DNA of 64,000 nucleotides, taken from assembly GCF_001610895.1 (NCBI RefSeq), contig NZ_CP011274.1, positions 1-64,000 of the forward strand, in the 5' to 3' direction. Shown in pieces: positions 11,211 to 23,960 of the stretch. Origin of the DNA: Planctomyces sp. SH-PL62. Its GTDB lineage: Bacteria > Planctomycetota > Planctomycetia > Isosphaerales > Isosphaeraceae. The notes under the pieces are model-generated. The model ran no database searches. It saw nothing but the letters and a program-made list of their open reading frames with translations, and was not told where the DNA came from. Position 1 is the first letter of the stretch; every line of letters starts with the position of its first letter. Made by a program: the position numbers and the translations under genes.

Positions 11211-12722
11211 TCAGGATGACCCGGGGAGGAGTTTGAGGATCTTCTGCCAGCGCGTCTCTCGCTCCTCCTGGAGCGTCGCGATCCGCTGGTTGAGCCAGAG
11301 CATGACGTCGGCCTCGGCGTCCCGCCCTTCGGCCTTCGCGGGCCGCTCCCGACGCGGTCGCGAGGGGCCGCCGGCCTGCGCATGCACTTGACCGGCCGGC
11401 GGACGCGTTCCTGGCGTCTCGGATGCGGCCGGCGGGGCGGCCTCCACCGGCGCTGCGGGTGGTGCGACGTTTTGGGGAGGAGCCGGCGTCGGCGAACGGT
11501 CAACAGGTTCCGCGGTCACGGGTGCGGGATTCAGGGCGGCCGGCTGCGCGGGCGTGGCCACGGCGGCCGATGCGCTTCCGGCGGCGGCCGCTTCCCGCTC
11601 TCGGGTGAAGGCCGCCAGTTCGGATTTGAGGTCCTGGAATTCCCGAGTCACTTCGCGGAGCTGGTCGAGCTCCTGACGGATCAGGTCCATCTGCTCACGC
11701 TGGAGCGAGCCGAACATCTCGACGAGCATGCCCATCGCGTTCTGGAACTGGTCCATCATCTGCTGCTGCATCATGCCGAACTGGTTCATGAGCGGGACCA
11801 GGACGGACGCGGACTCGCCAAGGTTCCTCGCTTCAAGCTCGGCGGGGAGGACGGTGACGGACTGGATGGCGCCGGGGCGTTCGGGCCTGGGGGCGTCGCT
11901 CTGGGGATGGATCGTGGCGGGAAGCCCGGCCCCCCGGACGAGCGAGAGGGCGCGGACCGGGCGTTCCGAGGACCCCTCGAGATCGTCGTCGGTTTCGATC
12001 CCTCCCCCCGCGTCCGAGTCATGATCCCGGAACCGGCTGCGGATGCGGATGCGATAACGGCCGATGGTCAGCTCGTCGCCATCGGCCAGGGGGGTGTAGC
12101 GCACGGCCGCGTTGTTGACCTCGACGCCGCCCCCCCCCAGGAGGTCGACGACCCAGAGTCCCGAGGGGGTGCGCACCAGGCTGCAATGGAACGGCGAGAC
12201 GCTGGGATCGGCCAGCCGGAACTTGCAGCCGGCGGCGGAACCGACCAGCGAGATGACCCGATTCATCGGCCAGATCGCCGATCGCGAGGGGCCGTTGAGG
12301 AATTCCAGGCCGACGTCCGGCCACACGCCGTTCCCATAGGATCGGGCGATCAGGGGACTGGGCTCGGGAGGCCGGTCGTCTCCGCCGTGCGCGCGGGCGC
12401 CGATCGGCCGGCGAAGCTCGTAGGGGCCGATCCGCATCGGCTCCTCGCGGGTCAGCCAGCCGGACTTGCGAACCCGCCCCCCACCCTGGGTGCCGAGGCG
12501 GCTCTCCAGGTCGATCCAGAAGGCGTGGCCCTCCACGACCTGCAAGTAAGCGTGGCGACGGCTCACCAGGCGATGTTCGAGGGGGACGTCGGCCCGCAGG
12601 TCGCGACCGATGAGCGCGAAGGGCTGGTGCAGGAACCGGACGCCGACGTCGGGCTCGCCGACGGCTTCCACGACGAGCTGCAAGGGCTCGGCCAGGCGAC
12701 AGGCGTCCAAGAACGATTTCAT
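11211..12722 (-). CDS. Double FHA-domain protein with coiled coil
   Basis: A 503-residue signalling or scaffold protein. The first FHA-like domain is at about residues 25-90 (FALIGRDLRADVPLEHRLVS and RRHAYLQVV; the GR...SRRH pattern is the phosphothreonine-binding signature). The second is at about residues 165-245 (ISLVGSAAGCKFRLADPSVS, PFHCSLVRTPSGLWVVDL, and ADGDELTIGRYRIRI), with a weaker GS...SPFH core. A Met/Gln-rich amphipathic coiled coil follows (NQFGMMQQQMMDQFQNAMGM and onward to about 400). After it come a Pro/Ala-rich linker and a conserved-looking C-terminal helix, MLWLNQRIATLQEERETRWQ. No enzymatic domain is visible. Such proteins read Ser/Thr-kinase output, and planctomycetes carry many such kinases. 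Its place inside a polysaccharide locus suggests control of synthesis, but that is inference. Confidence 0.85.
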   Translation of the reverse strand: MKSFLDACRLAEPLQLVVEAVGEPDVGVRFLHQPFALIGRDLRADVPLEHRLVSRRHAYLQVVEGHAFWIDLESRLGTQGGGRVRKSGWLTREEPMRIGPYELRRPIGARAHGGDDRPPEPSPLIARSYGNGVWPDVGLEFLNGPSRSAIWPMNRVISLVGSAAGCKFRLADPSVSPFHCSLVRTPSGLWVVDLLGGGGVEVNNAAVRYTPLADGDELTIGRYRIRIRSRFRDHDSDAGGGIETDDDLEGSSERPVRALSLVRGAGLPATIHPQSDAPRPERPGAIQSVTVLPAELEARNLGESASVLVPLMNQFGMMQQQMMDQFQNAMGMLVEMFGSLQREQMDLIRQELDQLREVTREFQDLKSELAAFTREREAAAAGSASAAVATPAQPAALNPAPVTAEPVDRSPTPAPPQNVAPPAAPVEAAPPAASETPGTRPPAGQVHAQAGGPSRPRRERPAKAEGRDAEADVMLWLNQRIATLQEERETRWQKILKLLPGSS

Positions 12723-18547: not shown

Positions 18548-18816
18548 GGAGCAACCTCTCAAGTGGTGCGGAGCGCGAGGCACGATTCCCGATGACGGAC
18601 GGGGGTGCTCCGTCCCGGCGGGCGATCTCGACGCCGTCCGCCGATCGGCGCCTTCAGTCTAACGAGTCTCCCCGTTAAACATCAAATCCGCCGACGAAGC
18701 CCCATTCTTACCCTAGTCCATACGCGGCCCGCATCAAAATAAGACGGCCCAATTTCGCAATCTTCCATGCAATCGCGACATCGCAAGCCTCGACCCGCCG
18801 GATCTCGATGCACCCA

Positions 18817-19358
18817 CGATTAACCGGGCATGCTTCGCCGTACCGTCGATCGGCCGCGAGGTTTCCCCGCTCCCCCGAATTCGCCCGGCCCATCGGGGCG
18901 TCCACGATTAACCGGACATACTTTCGATAGGCCTCCCGCCATCCCGACGCGGGAAGGATCAAACGTCCACACCGATTAACCGAGCATACCCGCCGCCTCG
19001 CCCGCTCCCGCTTCCTGGAGCCTCCGAAGGCCCAATCCACCGAATCCGCGCCGTCCGACCCGTCCTCGGCCCGGGGGAGGCCGTCGTCGACCGCGACCCC
19101 ATCTCGCCCTCCGGGATTCTTCGTGTCCAGGGGAACACCCCGATTCATGGCGCATACTTCCGGGATGCGGTCGATCCGGCGCATCCGAACACTAACGATG
19201 TTCGAACCGCAGTGGACACCAGAACATACCGATAGACCGAGCATGGAATTTGGGCCGTTTAGCGATTACCCAGACATACTTCCCACGATAGACCAGACAT
19301 ACTTAGGGCCTGCACTCACGATCAACCGGACATACCACTAGCGATTAACCGGACATAG
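18817..19358 (+). repeat. Iteron array, consensus CGATTAACCGGACATAC (replication origin)
   Basis: At least nine direct copies of a 17-bp motif start at 18817, 18905, 18973, 19141, 19230, 19263, 19286, 19319 and 19342. All face the same way. The consensus is CGATTAACCGGACATAC, with variants such as CGATAGACCAGACATAC. Two weaker matches lie near 19172 and 19214. The last five are spaced 33, 23, 33 and 23 bp apart, close to three and two helical turns, so bound proteins would sit on one face of the helix. The array ends 136 bp before a RepA-like initiator gene. Iterons in this place are the classic layout of a plasmid-type origin controlled by its own initiator. Open frames across the array only translate the repeat. 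From 18548 to 18816 I see no other element. Confidence 0.85.
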
Positions 19359-19411
19359 TTACGGTTTGTAAGTTCTTGAATGACAAGGCCTTGCGATGCA
19401 GAGAATTTGTT

Positions 19412-19470
19412 TCTAGACTCTTGTAGAGACTAGAAGACAACAACACGGGGAATTTCCCGTTGGTGTTGTC
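19412..19470. promoter_or_regulatory. Two adjacent hairpins in the AT-rich rep leader
   Basis: The first hairpin (19412-19434) pairs TCTAG-A-CTCT with AGAG-A-CTAGA around a TGT loop. The second (19436-19470) pairs GACAAC...ACGGG with CCCGT...GTTGTC around AATTT, with small bulges. They lie between the iterons and the rep start in the AT-richest part of the region. This could be the melting region, or a leader structure controlling initiator translation. Confidence 0.5.
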
Positions 19471-19494
19471 CTCCTCGATTTGCGATTCAGGACG

Positions 19495-21087
19495 ATGAGG
19501 ACCGGGACGGATCTCGATGCGACAGCCTCTGGGGCCGACGCCGGGAGCATCGGGATGGAAGAGCTGGAACTCTCGTTCGGGGATGGGGAGGGCGAGGAAT
19601 CGCCGGTCGAGGAAGTCTCGACTTCGAGCGACGCGGGCTGGAAGGACGAGCTGAACCTCGCCGAGTTCCCGATCGCCGCGCTCACGGACCGGGTCCCCGA
19701 CGGCCAGACGACCCTGGTGTTCGAGGATCGGCTGGAGCTGCGCGACAGCCCGCCGATCATCCGTCGGCTGACGATCATGGGGACGCACAAGCACGGCCTC
19801 CCCACCTCGCTCGACGACGAGCTTCTGGTGGGACTGATCCAGCTCACCAAGCGGCGGAGCAACTTCACCGACGCGCGGGTGCCGTTCTCGCGGTATGAGC
19901 TGATCGAGCTGCTGGGCTGGCCCCAGAGCGGCCAGAGCTACCGCCGCATCGAGGAGGCGCTGCACCGCTGGGTGGGCGTGGTCCTGATGTACGAGAACGC
20001 CTGGTGGGACAACACGGCCAAGAGCTGGGTCGACGAGCAGTTCCACGTCCTGGACAACGTGACCCTCTACGATCGCGAGCGTTGGCGGAAGTCCTCGGCG
20101 CGGTCGAAGGCGGGCAAGGGGACGACGTCGAAGGCCGACAAGCCCCCCCTGCCCCTCTCCAGCTTCAAGTGGAACGACGTGATGTTCCAGAGCTTCCAGA
20201 GCGGCAACCTGAAGCAGCTCGACCTGGAACTCTACCTGAAGCTCCGGCTGCCCACCACGAAGCGGATGTACCGGTTCCTGGACAAGCGGTTCTACCGCCG
20301 GATGCGGCTCGACTTCGACCTCCGGACCCTGGCCTGCGAGCACATCGGCCTGAGCCGGTCGTACGCGCCGACCGAGCTGAAGCGGCGGCTCAAGCCGGCC
20401 CTGGAAGAGCTGGAGCAGCTCGGGTTCCTGGAGGTCCTGACCCCCGAGGAGCGGTACTCGTACGTCAAGCGGGGGACCTGGCGGATCATCCTGATCCGGG
20501 GCCGTCGCGGCGGCGCGGCGGGGGCCGACGAGGGGACCGACGACGAGCCGTGCGAGCTGGTCGAGGCGCTTCGCGGTCGCGGCGTCACGGCCAAGGCCGC
20601 CCAGGAATTGGTGGCCGAGCACCCGGCGACCCGGATCCTGACCAAGCTGGAGGTCTTCGACTGGCTGATCCGCAACGAGGACAAGCGGATCGGCAAGAAC
20701 CCGGCCGGCTACCTCGTGGCCTCGATCCGGTCGGACTATCAGGAGCCGAACGATTTCCGGTCCTCGACCGGGGCCGAGTCCGCGAAGCAGGCGGCGCAGG
20801 CGACCCGCAAGGAGGCCGAGACCAAGGCGGCCGAGGCCAAGGCCCGGGACGAGGCCGTCGCCCGCGGCGAGGCCGATCGGGAGGCCCGCCTGAAGGCCGT
20901 CTGGGAAAAGCTCCCGACCGACCAACGCGACGCGATCCTCGCGACCGTCAAGGCCGAGAATCCCGGCCTGGGCCGCTGGAAGAAGATGCTCGAGCCCCTC
21001 TGCCTGGCCGCGCTGGAGGCGCGGCTCCGCGACGGCAAGGTCGCGTCCAGCCAGCCCCTGCTCTTCCCCGATTCCGACGAGTCCTGA
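19495..21087 (+). CDS. RepA-like plasmid replication initiator
   Basis: A 530-residue protein that should bind the iterons just upstream and open the origin. Residues 1-60 are acidic and low-complexity. The core (about 75-340) contains RLTIMGTHKHGLPTSLDDEL, then VPFSRYELIELLGWPQSGQS and YRRIEEALHRWVGVVLMYEN. It also has DEQFHVLDNVTLYDRE, YRFLDKRFYRRMRLDFDLRT and KRRLKPALEELEQLGFLEVL. This is the pattern of the replication initiator protein A family found on planctomycete and proteobacterial plasmids: two winged-helix units. An Ala/Lys/Glu-rich helical tail follows (about 420-480). ATG 19495 is chosen; a TTG lies five codons upstream. The gene is convergent with the partition operon at 21105-22573. 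Family identity is by motif recognition, not by search. Confidence 0.85.
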   Translation: MRTGTDLDATASGADAGSIGMEELELSFGDGEGEESPVEEVSTSSDAGWKDELNLAEFPIAALTDRVPDGQTTLVFEDRLELRDSPPIIRRLTIMGTHKHGLPTSLDDELLVGLIQLTKRRSNFTDARVPFSRYELIELLGWPQSGQSYRRIEEALHRWVGVVLMYENAWWDNTAKSWVDEQFHVLDNVTLYDRERWRKSSARSKAGKGTTSKADKPPLPLSSFKWNDVMFQSFQSGNLKQLDLELYLKLRLPTTKRMYRFLDKRFYRRMRLDFDLRTLACEHIGLSRSYAPTELKRRLKPALEELEQLGFLEVLTPEERYSYVKRGTWRIILIRGRRGGAAGADEGTDDEPCELVEALRGRGVTAKAAQELVAEHPATRILTKLEVFDWLIRNEDKRIGKNPAGYLVASIRSDYQEPNDFRSSTGAESAKQAAQATRKEAETKAAEAKARDEAVARGEADREARLKAVWEKLPTDQRDAILATVKAENPGLGRWKKMLEPLCLAALEARLRDGKVASSQPLLFPDSDES

Positions 21088-21104: not shown

Positions 21105-21575
21105 TCAGGCGGCGTCCCCTTCCAGGTCGCGGTCCGCGGCCGCCTCGGCGCTCCGGCCCGATCGGCGGTCGCGGGAGTCGTACAGGACCATCGACGCGAC
21201 CAGGGGCCGAAGCAGGTCGTTGACGACCTCAGAGCGGTCCTTCCCCATGTGGATCGCGTACAGCCAGAGCTTCTTGTCGACGTCCTCCTCGATGGCGAAC
21301 ATCCGCTGCACGCGCTTGGGCTTCGACGGCTTGGCCCGGCTGGCGCGCGACCGCGACGACGAGGACGCCGGCGCGGCGCGGCCGGTCGGCTCCTGATCGG
21401 CGGTCGCTTCGGAGTCGCCCGGCTCGGCGGCCGTCGACGTCGAGGCCGAGGGCGCGTTCCCCGCGGCCGGGACGGCGATCCGGCGTTCGAACTCGGCCTC
21501 GGTCATGCTCGGCCGGGTCAGCCCGGTCCGGTTCTCCGGTCCGGGGATGCCTCCACGTCGGGTCACGCTGCTCAT
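21105..21575 (-). CDS. Ribbon-helix-helix DNA-binding protein, likely ParA partner
   Basis: A 156-residue protein. The first about 95 residues are low-complexity (Ala/Ser/Thr/Glu, then basic KPSKPKR). The C-terminal part reads RMFAIEEDVDKKLWLYAIHM then GKDRSEVVNDLLRPLVASMV, which fits a ribbon-helix-helix fold: a strand, helix, turn (GKDRSEV) and second helix. It lies 128 bp downstream of parA on the same strand, the usual place of the small centromere-binding protein (ParG/omega-like) in partition operons. The disordered N-terminus also fits ParG-like proteins, where a flexible arm stimulates ParA ATPase, although here it is longer. Start 21575 has a purine-rich ribosome-binding stretch; an upstream extension to 21659 is possible. 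Confidence 0.7.
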   Translation of the reverse strand: MSSVTRRGGIPGPENRTGLTRPSMTEAEFERRIAVPAAGNAPSASTSTAAEPGDSEATADQEPTGRAAPASSSSRSRASRAKPSKPKRVQRMFAIEEDVDKKLWLYAIHMGKDRSEVVNDLLRPLVASMVLYDSRDRRSGRSAEAAADRDLEGDAA

Positions 21576-21703: not shown

Positions 21704-22573
21704 TCAGGAGGCTTCCCGGTAGTGCGGGTCGGGTTCGCCGAAGCCCTCGGCCGCGTCGTCGCCGAAGTCCGAACCGGCCGACGAGGCGTCCGCGAGCGGC
21801 GCGTCTTCCAGAAATTTCGCGGCCGCCGCGCGGTAGGCCGAGGCCGCCGCGCCCATGCGGTCGTAATGGATCAAGGGGACGCCCCGCGCGTAGGCCTCGC
21901 GGAACTTGACCGACGCCGGCACCACCAGCTCGTGCGCCAGCGGGCCGAAGTAGTTGCGGACCTCGGCCTCGATCTGCTTCGAGACCAGGGTGCGGTCGAC
22001 CCTCGTGATGAGGACGCCGGTGATCGCCAGCGGGCCGGCGTCGGTGAACTCCAGCCGGAACTCGCTGACCGTCTGCACCAGATCCTCCAGCGCCCGGACG
22101 CCGGCGAGGGCCGCGACGCAGGGGTCGATGGGGATCAGGATCTCCGAGACGGCGTAGAGGATGGCCACGTTCAGCGGGGTGAGGACCGGGCTGGTGTCGA
22201 AGAGCACCACGTCGAATCCGGTCAGCCCCTTGAGCAGCCGTCGGATCCGGAACTCGCGCCCCTGCCCCAATCCCTGGACGCCGCCCATCTGATCCGAGCA
22301 GTTGCCGAGCCGATCGCCGGGGGGAACGACCGACAACCCGGGGTAGTCCGTGGCGACCGCGACGTCGGCCAGGCTCAACCCTTCCAGCATGGCGTCCGCA
22401 AGCCCGACGGCCGGCGCGCCTCGGGGGAAGAACCCGAGCGCCGCGTTGCCCGACGGGTCGGCGTCGACCAGGAGCACGCGGCGGTCAAGCTCGACCAGAG
22501 CCGCGGCCATGTTGATCGCCGTCGTGCTCTTGCCGACCCCTCCCTTGGCGTTGGTGATCGCGACGCTCTTCAT
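21704..22573 (-). CDS. parA: ParA-family partition ATPase
   Basis: A 289-residue deviant Walker ATPase that would move replicon copies apart. It begins MKSVAITNAKGGVGKSTTAI, with the ParA-type Walker A motif KGGVGKST at residues 10-17. LLVDADPSGNAALGF (Walker A' region) and FDVVLFDTSPVLTPLNVAIL (Walker B) follow, then LIPIDPCVAALAGVRALEDL and VPASVKFREAYARGVPLIHY. There is no helix-turn-helix domain before the ATPase, as in type Ib partition proteins that rely on a separate RHH partner. That partner lies immediately downstream (21105-21575). Upstream lies the unusual repeat-rich region 22640-23960, where a type Ib centromere would be expected. The tail after residue 255 is acidic and variable. 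Confidence 0.93.
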   Translation of the reverse strand: MKSVAITNAKGGVGKSTTAINMAAALVELDRRVLLVDADPSGNAALGFFPRGAPAVGLADAMLEGLSLADVAVATDYPGLSVVPPGDRLGNCSDQMGGVQGLGQGREFRIRRLLKGLTGFDVVLFDTSPVLTPLNVAILYAVSEILIPIDPCVAALAGVRALEDLVQTVSEFRLEFTDAGPLAITGVLITRVDRTLVSKQIEAEVRNYFGPLAHELVVPASVKFREAYARGVPLIHYDRMGAAASAYRAAAAKFLEDAPLADASSAGSDFGDDAAEGFGEPDPHYREAS

Positions 22574-22639
22574 GATCCCCCCTCCCCCGCAGCTCGACCG
22601 CCCAGGATCGACGCCGTTAAAGCCCTGATTTCATTGAAC

Positions 22640-23960
22640 TTAACGGCGGCACCTTGGAGACTTGGCGGACTGGCCGCTGGGTTGCGATGTTTCTTGACGC
22701 CTGGACACCTGGATTCCATGGAAAACCGAAACCCTGACGCCTTGTTCTCTTGATCTATCGGTCACTGGATGCCTCGGCTTGTCGATTCCTCGAAAAATTG
22801 GCGACTTGATCCCCAGGCGCCAAGTTGCCAAGGCACCGATGTAACAGGACGGCCAGGTGCCAACTCTGCTTGGCGATGCAACGATCATGGCGAATGGGCA
22901 TCCAGGCATCAGGGTGATCGATGTGCCAGGGAGCCATGGGGCCAGGGTGACGCGAAGACCAAGGCGTCATGCGCCCGTTGGTGCCAAGGAACCTGGGCGG
23001 CATGGGGGCCTGTAATAGCTTGGTTCCAGGGCGGCTGGGTATCGGTTTGGCATGACGCCTGGGTTTCCATCCGCATGAAAACCAAGTCAGCCTACCGGAC
23101 TTGGAATCCTGGTCACTTGCAGCATCGCTCGCCTTGCTCTCCATCTCTCATGGTTTATCGGCATCAAGAGGCTATGACGACCAATCCCTATGGAGCGCCT
23201 GGGTGGATTGGACAAATGGGACCAATCGAACTGGGAGCCCATGTCGCTGTCTCGCCTTGGGCCTGCGGGGGGCTTGGTGAATTGGCACCCAGGGGATCGA
23301 GCCGACTTGATGCCAGGGCGGCAAGTCGCCATTGCCACCCAGCGACCCTGGAACCCTGGCGGCTTGACGCCTTGGTGCATGGCGTACCCTGGTGCCATGT
23401 CGCCCAGGGGCCTTGGCTTGTCCGTGGGTGCGTGAGCAGGCCGAGCCGGCCGGTGGACGTAGCGATGGCCCCGACCTGAGCCGCGACACCAAAGCAGGGG
23501 GGGTGTCCCTGGCGACATGGTTTCAAGGCGACTGGGCCGGCAAGGTGCACGAGACATCAAGGGGGCAGGGGGGCCAGGGCATGTTGGTTTCAAGTCGCAT
23601 TGATGGCAAGGCGTCTGTGTGCCTGGGTCCCAAGGCGGCTGGGAATCAAGCGACCTGGGAGATTGGGGATCAAGGAGCCTGCGAGCCTTGGATCCAATGT
23701 GCCAGGGCACCAAGGTTCCAAGGTGGTGGCGCGAGCAAGGCAATGTGGCAAGTTGGCGGCAAGGTCGCCATATGCCAGGGGGCCAGGTTGTCAGGGTGCC
23801 AAGGTTCCAGGATTCCAGTCTGCATCGGTTCCTTGGAACACAGGTCCGTGTGAAACCATGTCGCCATTTGCAGCATGCCACTTGTAGTGCCATGGCGCCT
23901 TGAAGCCAAGGTGATCGAGGGGCCAAGGTCGAGGAGGCGCCCTGGATCCATGACGCCTCG
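22640..23960. repeat. 1.3-kb degenerate word-repeat region upstream of parA
   Basis: A non-coding-looking stretch dominated by short words CTTGG, CCAAGG, GCCAGG, CCTGG, GGCGAC and GACGCC in both orientations, often as local inverted pairs. Examples are the CCAGGCGCCAAGTTGCCAAG block from 22813 and the run of GCCAGG/CCAAGG words at 23699-23726 and 23774-23818. It has visibly lower GC than the flanks. No unit repeats exactly, so it looks like an old decayed array. Many overlapping open frames exist on all frames because the words contain no stops. Their products are rich in Trp, Gly, Gln and His and are not protein-like. It lies between parA and the gene at 25341. Possible roles: partition centromere, decayed short tandem repeat, or structured RNA. 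Confidence 0.65.

Follow-up and report, generated by a model that had tools for sequence, protein, structure and literature searches.

A probable iteron-type replication origin with an RPA-family initiator on plasmid pPL62-1 of the planctomycete SH-PL62

The initiator TrfA of plasmid RK2, like several others, is a two-winged-helix protein, and the direct repeats (iterons) of such plasmids are typically spaced near 22 bp. Chromosome 2 of Vibrio cholerae is a replicon of ~1 Mb. Its origin ori2, to which RctB belongs, is treated in PMC10797057 as an iteron-type origin on a secondary replicon. A further group of initiators, the Pfam family RPA (PF10134), occurs on plasmids of Deinococcus, Rubrobacter and Isosphaeraceae. 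Here we describe a locus in a 64,000-nucleotide stretch of the planctomycete SH-PL62 (the window; bases 1–64000 of the 97,874-bp contig C2, which is plasmid pPL62-1), where an array of nine direct repeats precedes a gene for an RPA-family initiator. The 18.8–21.1 kb segment is very probably the vegetative origin (oriV + rep) of pPL62-1, at which initiator-bound iterons would start theta replication. The design is well known; this origin, together with a cross-phylum set of initiators and iterons, is a well-supported addition to it.

The reading frame at 19480–21087 (+ strand) matches RPA at 8e-11, scoring 42.4 bits against a curated cut-off of 27. Rep3_N (13.5 versus 22.4 bits) and TrfA (12.6 versus 22 bits) both fall under their cut-offs, and the protein was therefore filed under the RPA-family initiators, with a fold like that of RepE and RctB, and not as a Rep3 member. 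The gene probably begins at ATG 19555 (19555–21087, 510 amino acids), since in an alignment of congeners indels break the frame in the leader upstream, and the annotated start in Paludisphaera borealis, the nearest named relative found, aligns with this ATG. A preliminary description of the locus had placed the array 136 bp before the gene by assuming ATG 19495; the gap is probably 196 bp.

An AlphaFold2 model built on 57 aligned sequences (mean predicted local distance difference test score, pLDDT, 86.8) suggests a RepE/RctB-like double winged-helix protein with an additional helical C-terminal part. Residues 30–321 of the model match domains 2–3 of RctB best (Z 17.1, root-mean-square deviation (rmsd) 4.8, 247 aligned residues, 14% identity; Foldseek E 3.5e-10), and the model also matches RepE54 on iteron DNA (1rep_C; Z 14.4, rmsd 3.2, 202 aligned residues, ~16% identity). 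A sequence-profile search of solved structures returned only three weak, unrelated matches and no solved relative, so the fold assignment comes from structure comparison. VIA-align re-ranks Foldseek matches, and the absence of TrfA from its list is uninformative. No relatives of the initiator were found in the phage collection.

Like the iteron plasmids of the mini-F RepE type, the locus thus has direct repeats adjoining rep, a spacing near 22 bp, an AT-rich block beside the array and an initiator whose predicted structure matches the RepE54–iteron crystal structures. Unlike them, it shows low identity to RepE, an alternation of 23- and 33-bp spacings, the extra C-terminal helices, Rep3_N and TrfA scores under cut-off, and no DnaA box that could be seen. 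It shares with ori2 the predicted initiator fold and the location on a secondary replicon, from which it differs in size (98 kb for pPL62-1) and in the low identity to RctB. By family it belongs with the RPA-type initiators, and tblastn shows distant relatives on plasmids of Deinococcus and Rubrobacter; unlike that wider type, the close group (59–89% identity) was found only in the window's own family (f1) among the 59 genomes searched.

At three or fewer mismatches, the motif CGATTAACCGGACATAC has seven matches in the window, all on the + strand and all within 18817–19358 (mean for shuffled sequence, 0.02). They include the distal iterons 1–3, of 17 bp each, at 18817, 18905 and 18973 (18817–18989), which match the motif and are conserved in congeners. 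Two further CGAT sites lie at 19141 (iteron 4, CGATTCATGGCGCATAC, 19141–19157; five mismatches) and 19230 (six mismatches). Both are too degenerate to be called from the motif, since at up to six mismatches the window holds 38 forward sites (10 of them within 18800–19360) and 18 reverse sites. They were accepted, for a total of nine iterons, because five congeners conserve them (0.99 and 0.89, where the 17 bp to the left of each score 0.67 and 0.65). Over the whole array, conservation in these congeners is 0.90 at iteron positions (153 positions) and 0.52 in the DNA between them (389 positions). In the whole genome (6.78 Mb), the motif occurs six times at two or fewer mismatches, always in this array and in one direction; the reversed pattern gave no match.

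The last five iterons form a proximal ladder at 19230–19358 (+ strand), with starts at 19230, 19263, 19286, 19319 and 19342, that is, at 33/23/33/23 bp. Both this spacing and the count of at least nine copies facing one way had been given in the preliminary description, and both hold. Its three and two helical turns are approximate: counted at 10.5 bp per turn, the intervals come to 3.14 and 2.19 turns, with a drift of 240 degrees over the ladder, and they are near whole turns only at 11 bp per turn, where the sites keep within 65 degrees.

Directly after the array, the segment 19360–19419 is 60% AT in a replicon of 31% AT, at about the 99.9th percentile of the window, in agreement with the AT-rich leader noted earlier. 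It belongs to a conserved block at 19359–19449 (mean conservation 0.84 in five congeners; alignable in 16 relatives) that is a candidate DNA-unwinding element. Two hairpins were also reported there, without further specification. A hairpin at 19436–19470 (+ strand; arms GACAACA/TGTTGTC) has its outer arms kept in most of the 16 aligned relatives, with no covariation seen, and the AAGGCCTT palindrome at 19385–19392 is not conserved among them. Folding of the leader RNA gave a z of −1.34, with 25 of 200 shuffles equally good, and folding of the gappy 16-sequence leader alignment gave no pairs; there is no evidence of conserved RNA structure in the leader beyond the kept arms. A weak promoter-like pair, TTGCGA-17-TAGACT at 19391–19419 (+ strand), is a candidate rep promoter picked by eye, as a sigma-70 promoter scan of 18600–19700 returned none. 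The same scan gave a single terminator-like site (0.5 expected), on the − strand at 19460–19445, inside the leader hairpin.

The array accompanies the initiator gene in related genomes. A match was found in 32 of the 59 genomes, and a close orthologue (L025–L045) in 21, this one included. Same-direction sites (four or fewer mismatches) lie upstream of 20 of these 21, none of them reversed, and at this threshold 13 arrays end with 33 and then 23 bp; two (L042 and L043) are spaced 33/33, and another (L040) has one 22-bp interval. In 19 genomes, initiator identity was compared with that of a chromosomal marker at C1:3470–6703, which we take to be the large subunit of carbamoyl-phosphate synthase (G034 was excluded, having no marker match; the value of 87 used for G002 combines two pieces, of 86 and 91). 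Initiator and marker identities correlate at a rho of 0.80, which rises to 0.91 without two genomes of genus g9 (G013 and G030), whose position off the line may reflect transfer or faster evolution. Records titled Candidatus Kuenenia stuttgartiensis (L075–L077) hold close orthologues, and the genome set places the contigs of the same lengths (in G027 and G036) in f1; the title or the binning is probably wrong for those records.

A wider set comprised 79 loci among the best 80 of 167 in a scan of genome contigs, with record titles naming Planctomycetota, Verrucomicrobiota, Acidobacteria, proteobacterial bins and one cyanobacterium, many of them metagenome bins. Five loci were dropped (four for scant upstream DNA, one for N), leaving 74, of which 17 are of the close group. 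Repeats were sought de novo as 14-mers with three or fewer mismatches within 650 bp upstream and compared with six shuffles of each locus. At least five copies precede 57 of the 74 genes, each array above its own six shuffles (41 of 57 outside the close group), against 5 of 70 downstream controls. Arrays with four or more copies yield 379 adjacent spacings, of which 173 fall at 21–24 bp, 68 at 32–34 bp and 5 at 25–31 bp, with clusters at 22–23 and 32–33 bp. The frame CG-N10-CA is present in 44 of 71 arrays (17 of the close group; 27 of 54 outside it), where column shuffles reach 9 at most and the next best separation (4) gives 23 of 71; it is missing from 27, including those of contigs C3 and C4 of this genome and of Isosphaera pallida.

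Array similarity in the wider set follows initiator identity, with a rho of 0.49 over 71 arrays (2485 pairs), 0.41 for pairs below 60% identity and 0.26 for those below 45%; in none of the three ranges did any of 2000 label permutations reach the observed value. A simpler measure on 67 loci gave 0.44, 0.34 and 0.22 for the arrays and 0.15, 0.08 and 0.03 for the whole leaders, so much more of the relationship is retained in the array than in the neighbouring DNA. Random 30-mers of leader DNA just upstream of the gene gave −0.02 to 0.06; being taken at unmatched offsets, they are a generous null, and the whole-leader comparison is the fairer one. By these comparisons, iteron word and initiator seem to have diverged jointly over several bacterial phyla.

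Twelve more distant RPA genes were also considered. Six have clear arrays of other words (L002, L003, L047, L051, L052 and L053), among them those on C3 and C4 of this genome and that of I. pallida; one (L049) has repeats in both orientations, and in five (L001, L046, L048, L050 and L054) the number of copies equals the shuffle maximum or differs from it by no more than one. Three plasmids in one cell (C2, C3 and C4) thus each carry a different iteron word. On C4 (L003), six iterons stand at exactly 22 bp and alternate between TACTCC- and TATCGC-core words. A full-length RPA-domain gene on the chromosome (L001; C1:5680777–5681469, − strand; 268 bits) lacks a clear array and possibly belongs to the integrated pPALBO2-like plasmid that PMC5352709 describes.

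We tentatively suggest, as a proposal that could well prove wrong, that the RPA initiators found in Planctomycetota, Verrucomicrobiota, Acidobacteria and other groups are a single family of iteron readers, sharing a CG-N10-CA half-site frame and a spacing of two or three turns, whose sites and proteins co-diverged over very long times. One cell might then hold three replicons with three words, and the Isosphaeraceae lineage with this origin would be an old, largely vertically inherited small chromid. If the co-diverged family is real, a natural specificity code between initiators and iterons could be read from sequence. The 71 array–initiator pairs are in any case a data set on how winged-helix proteins read their sites and how co-resident replicons are kept separate, and a planctomycete plasmid gains a well-defined candidate origin of possible use for vector building in the group.

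Several observations weigh against the reading of the locus as an origin. One close orthologue (L045) showed no site, though the upstream DNA covered for it spans only 283 bp, and the L040 initiator (G023:C193) contains an in-frame TAA yet has 11 iteron sites upstream; it may be a pseudogene or an assembly error. In the wider set, 10 of the 74 loci have four copies, and seven (L071, L092, L098, L102, L112, L118 and L123) have two or three, not above their shuffles; L071 is a close orthologue. Shared ancestry adds to the correlation between arrays and initiators and is not fully removed by the leader controls, and several loci are near-duplicates, so that neither pairs nor spacings are independent. 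GC skew, which the preliminary description had proposed as a check, is weak support for the origin: the skew range of C2 is equalled by only 1 of 500 block shuffles, and its minimum lies 8 kb from the array; for the P. borealis plasmid PALBO1, none of 500 shuffles equals the range and the minimum is 15.8 kb off. No DnaA box was found on the plasmid with TTATCCACA or looser forms, a consensus that we take to be of the E. coli type and that may not be the host's; the same forms were likewise absent from two 20-kb samples of the chromosome ends.

The repeats might instead serve the neighbouring parA system as its partition site (centromere, parS), which we consider very improbable. Adjoining rep are indeed a gene for a ParA-family ATPase (21704–22573, − strand) and, downstream of it, one for a small conserved protein (21105–21575, − strand), a probable partition partner. 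The latter has no Pfam match and looks ribbon-helix-helix-like by eye, a label that stays by eye since its single-chain model is poor (pLDDT 61.9, with helix where a ribbon-helix-helix would have strand); it has strong matches in 10 of the 79 related loci (E <1e-40) and weak ones in three more. On secondary replicons of Deinococcus, direct repeats before parAB can have this role, and in D. radiodurans such repeats acted both as ori and in a parS-like way (PMC7671480). The present repeats stand before rep. Their distance is 1.7 kb to the 3′ end of the closest par gene and 3.2 kb to the parA start, and they follow rep and not par: the related plasmid pSINAC01 (L037) has ParA and ParB in place of ParA and the small protein, and the same iterons remain, which ties them to rep. 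In addition, a different 8-bp periodic stretch stands directly upstream of parA. In this apparently non-coding stretch (22574–23790), a candidate partition site, CCAAGG/CCAGGG words recur with autocorrelations of 0.39, 0.38 and 0.37 at 8, 16 and 24. The three 500-bp bins of the plasmid that are richest in them start at 22501, 23001 and 23501, and a weaker enrichment is seen upstream of parA in PALBO1 (11501–12500).

Even less probable is a role of the repeats as operators, through which a regulator would control rep or the divergent TPR gene while replication began at another place. The array does sit between these two genes, and in known plasmids iteron arrays often autoregulate rep as well. 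Against this, the far-side neighbour in pSINAC01 is a sigma factor gene and the array stays with rep; the spacings in related loci cluster near two and three turns; and the predicted fold of the initiator is that of iteron binders. Although some transposon ends carry short direct repeats, the least credible account is that the array belongs to a mobile element, whether as its ends or as repeats within it, given the single locus in the whole genome, the lack of a transposase match in any of seven proteins scanned around it (0/7) and the sites of one direction that accompany the orthologous rep gene in 20 of 21 genomes. A transposon family with these repeats at its ends, which the preliminary description had named as a finding that would overturn its reading, was looked for and is not supported.

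Its central claim, that this is a plasmid-type iteron origin accompanied by a dedicated initiator, has good support from the array, the RPA match, the arrays found at orthologues and de novo, and the predicted fold. By analogy with known iteron plasmids, the initiator at this origin would bind as a monomer to the direct 17-bp repeats, the likely half-sites being CGAT and CCGGACATAC, and the 33/23-bp ladder would set the bound molecules about two or three helical turns from one another. Once loaded, the array would open the adjacent AT-rich block at 19359–19449, one strand of which the initiator would hold, as may be expected from RepE, TrfA and RctB (PMC10797057). The opened origin would then recruit and load the host helicase. 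The same iterons probably limit copy number through autorepression and handcuffing.

The replicon itself is already in print. The SH-PL62 chromosome (6.507 Mb) and plasmids PL62-1 to PL62-4 are tabulated in Ivanova et al. 2017 (PMC5352709), matching the five contigs of the 6,784,659-bp genome (6,507,102, 97,874, 86,054, 81,115 and 12,514 bp). That paper also reports the common replication initiator protein A and the synteny of pPL62-1, pPALBO1 and pSINAC01. The terms 'iteron' and 'direct repeat' have zero occurrences in it, and no description of an origin was found in the part consulted; nor did the literature searched, which leaves out most subscription journals, hold a title on this origin. 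In our comparison, 43 of 58 queried PALBO1 proteins match C2 with their order largely kept (58 of 84 annotated features were queried; the IS5 transposase query was invalid owing to a wrong start), and the match carries on over both ends of C2, which fits a circular replicon. The gene dnaA sits at the start of the 6.5-Mb contig C1, and all four 16S genes found are on C1, not on C2, where the preliminary description had suggested looking for dnaA and rRNA genes. A chromosomal origin is thus ruled out for an array on a separate 97,874-bp contig, and the earlier option of a plasmid origin embedded in the chromosome was wrong. No Rfam family reached its gathering score in the window.

The other option, a chromid or megaplasmid, stands in part: 97,874 bp is no megaplasmid, and by composition and gene content pPL62-1 can defensibly be called chromid-like. 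It has a plasmid-type replication system (rep, iterons and parA) and a chromosome-like composition, its GC content being 69.02% against 69.01% for the pooled chromosome (21 samples of 20 kb). The tetranucleotide distances of its 20-kb pieces lie within the chromosome range; this holds equally for C3 and C4 and is therefore not discriminating. From 61149 of the window to C2:73917 runs a cluster, presumably of alternative complex III, together with cytochrome oxidase genes, with the gene products as annotated in PALBO1. Its ActA-type gene was found as a single copy in the genome, on C2, and shares its contig with rep in each of the six genus members examined (five of five congeners and SH-PL62); in the other genomes with both genes, mostly fragmented drafts, it is on another contig in seven of seven. 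The idea that the plasmid holds the sole complex III is weakened by chromosomal cytochrome b genes; because these and two further COX1 genes exist on the chromosome, we make no claim of indispensability for the plasmid. The presence of the marker on the rep contig in six genus members raises the question of why respiration genes reside on a 98-kb replicon. As a minor point, the GC content of SH-PL62 is printed as 65.56% in PMC5352709, against 69.0% in the 21 chromosome samples.

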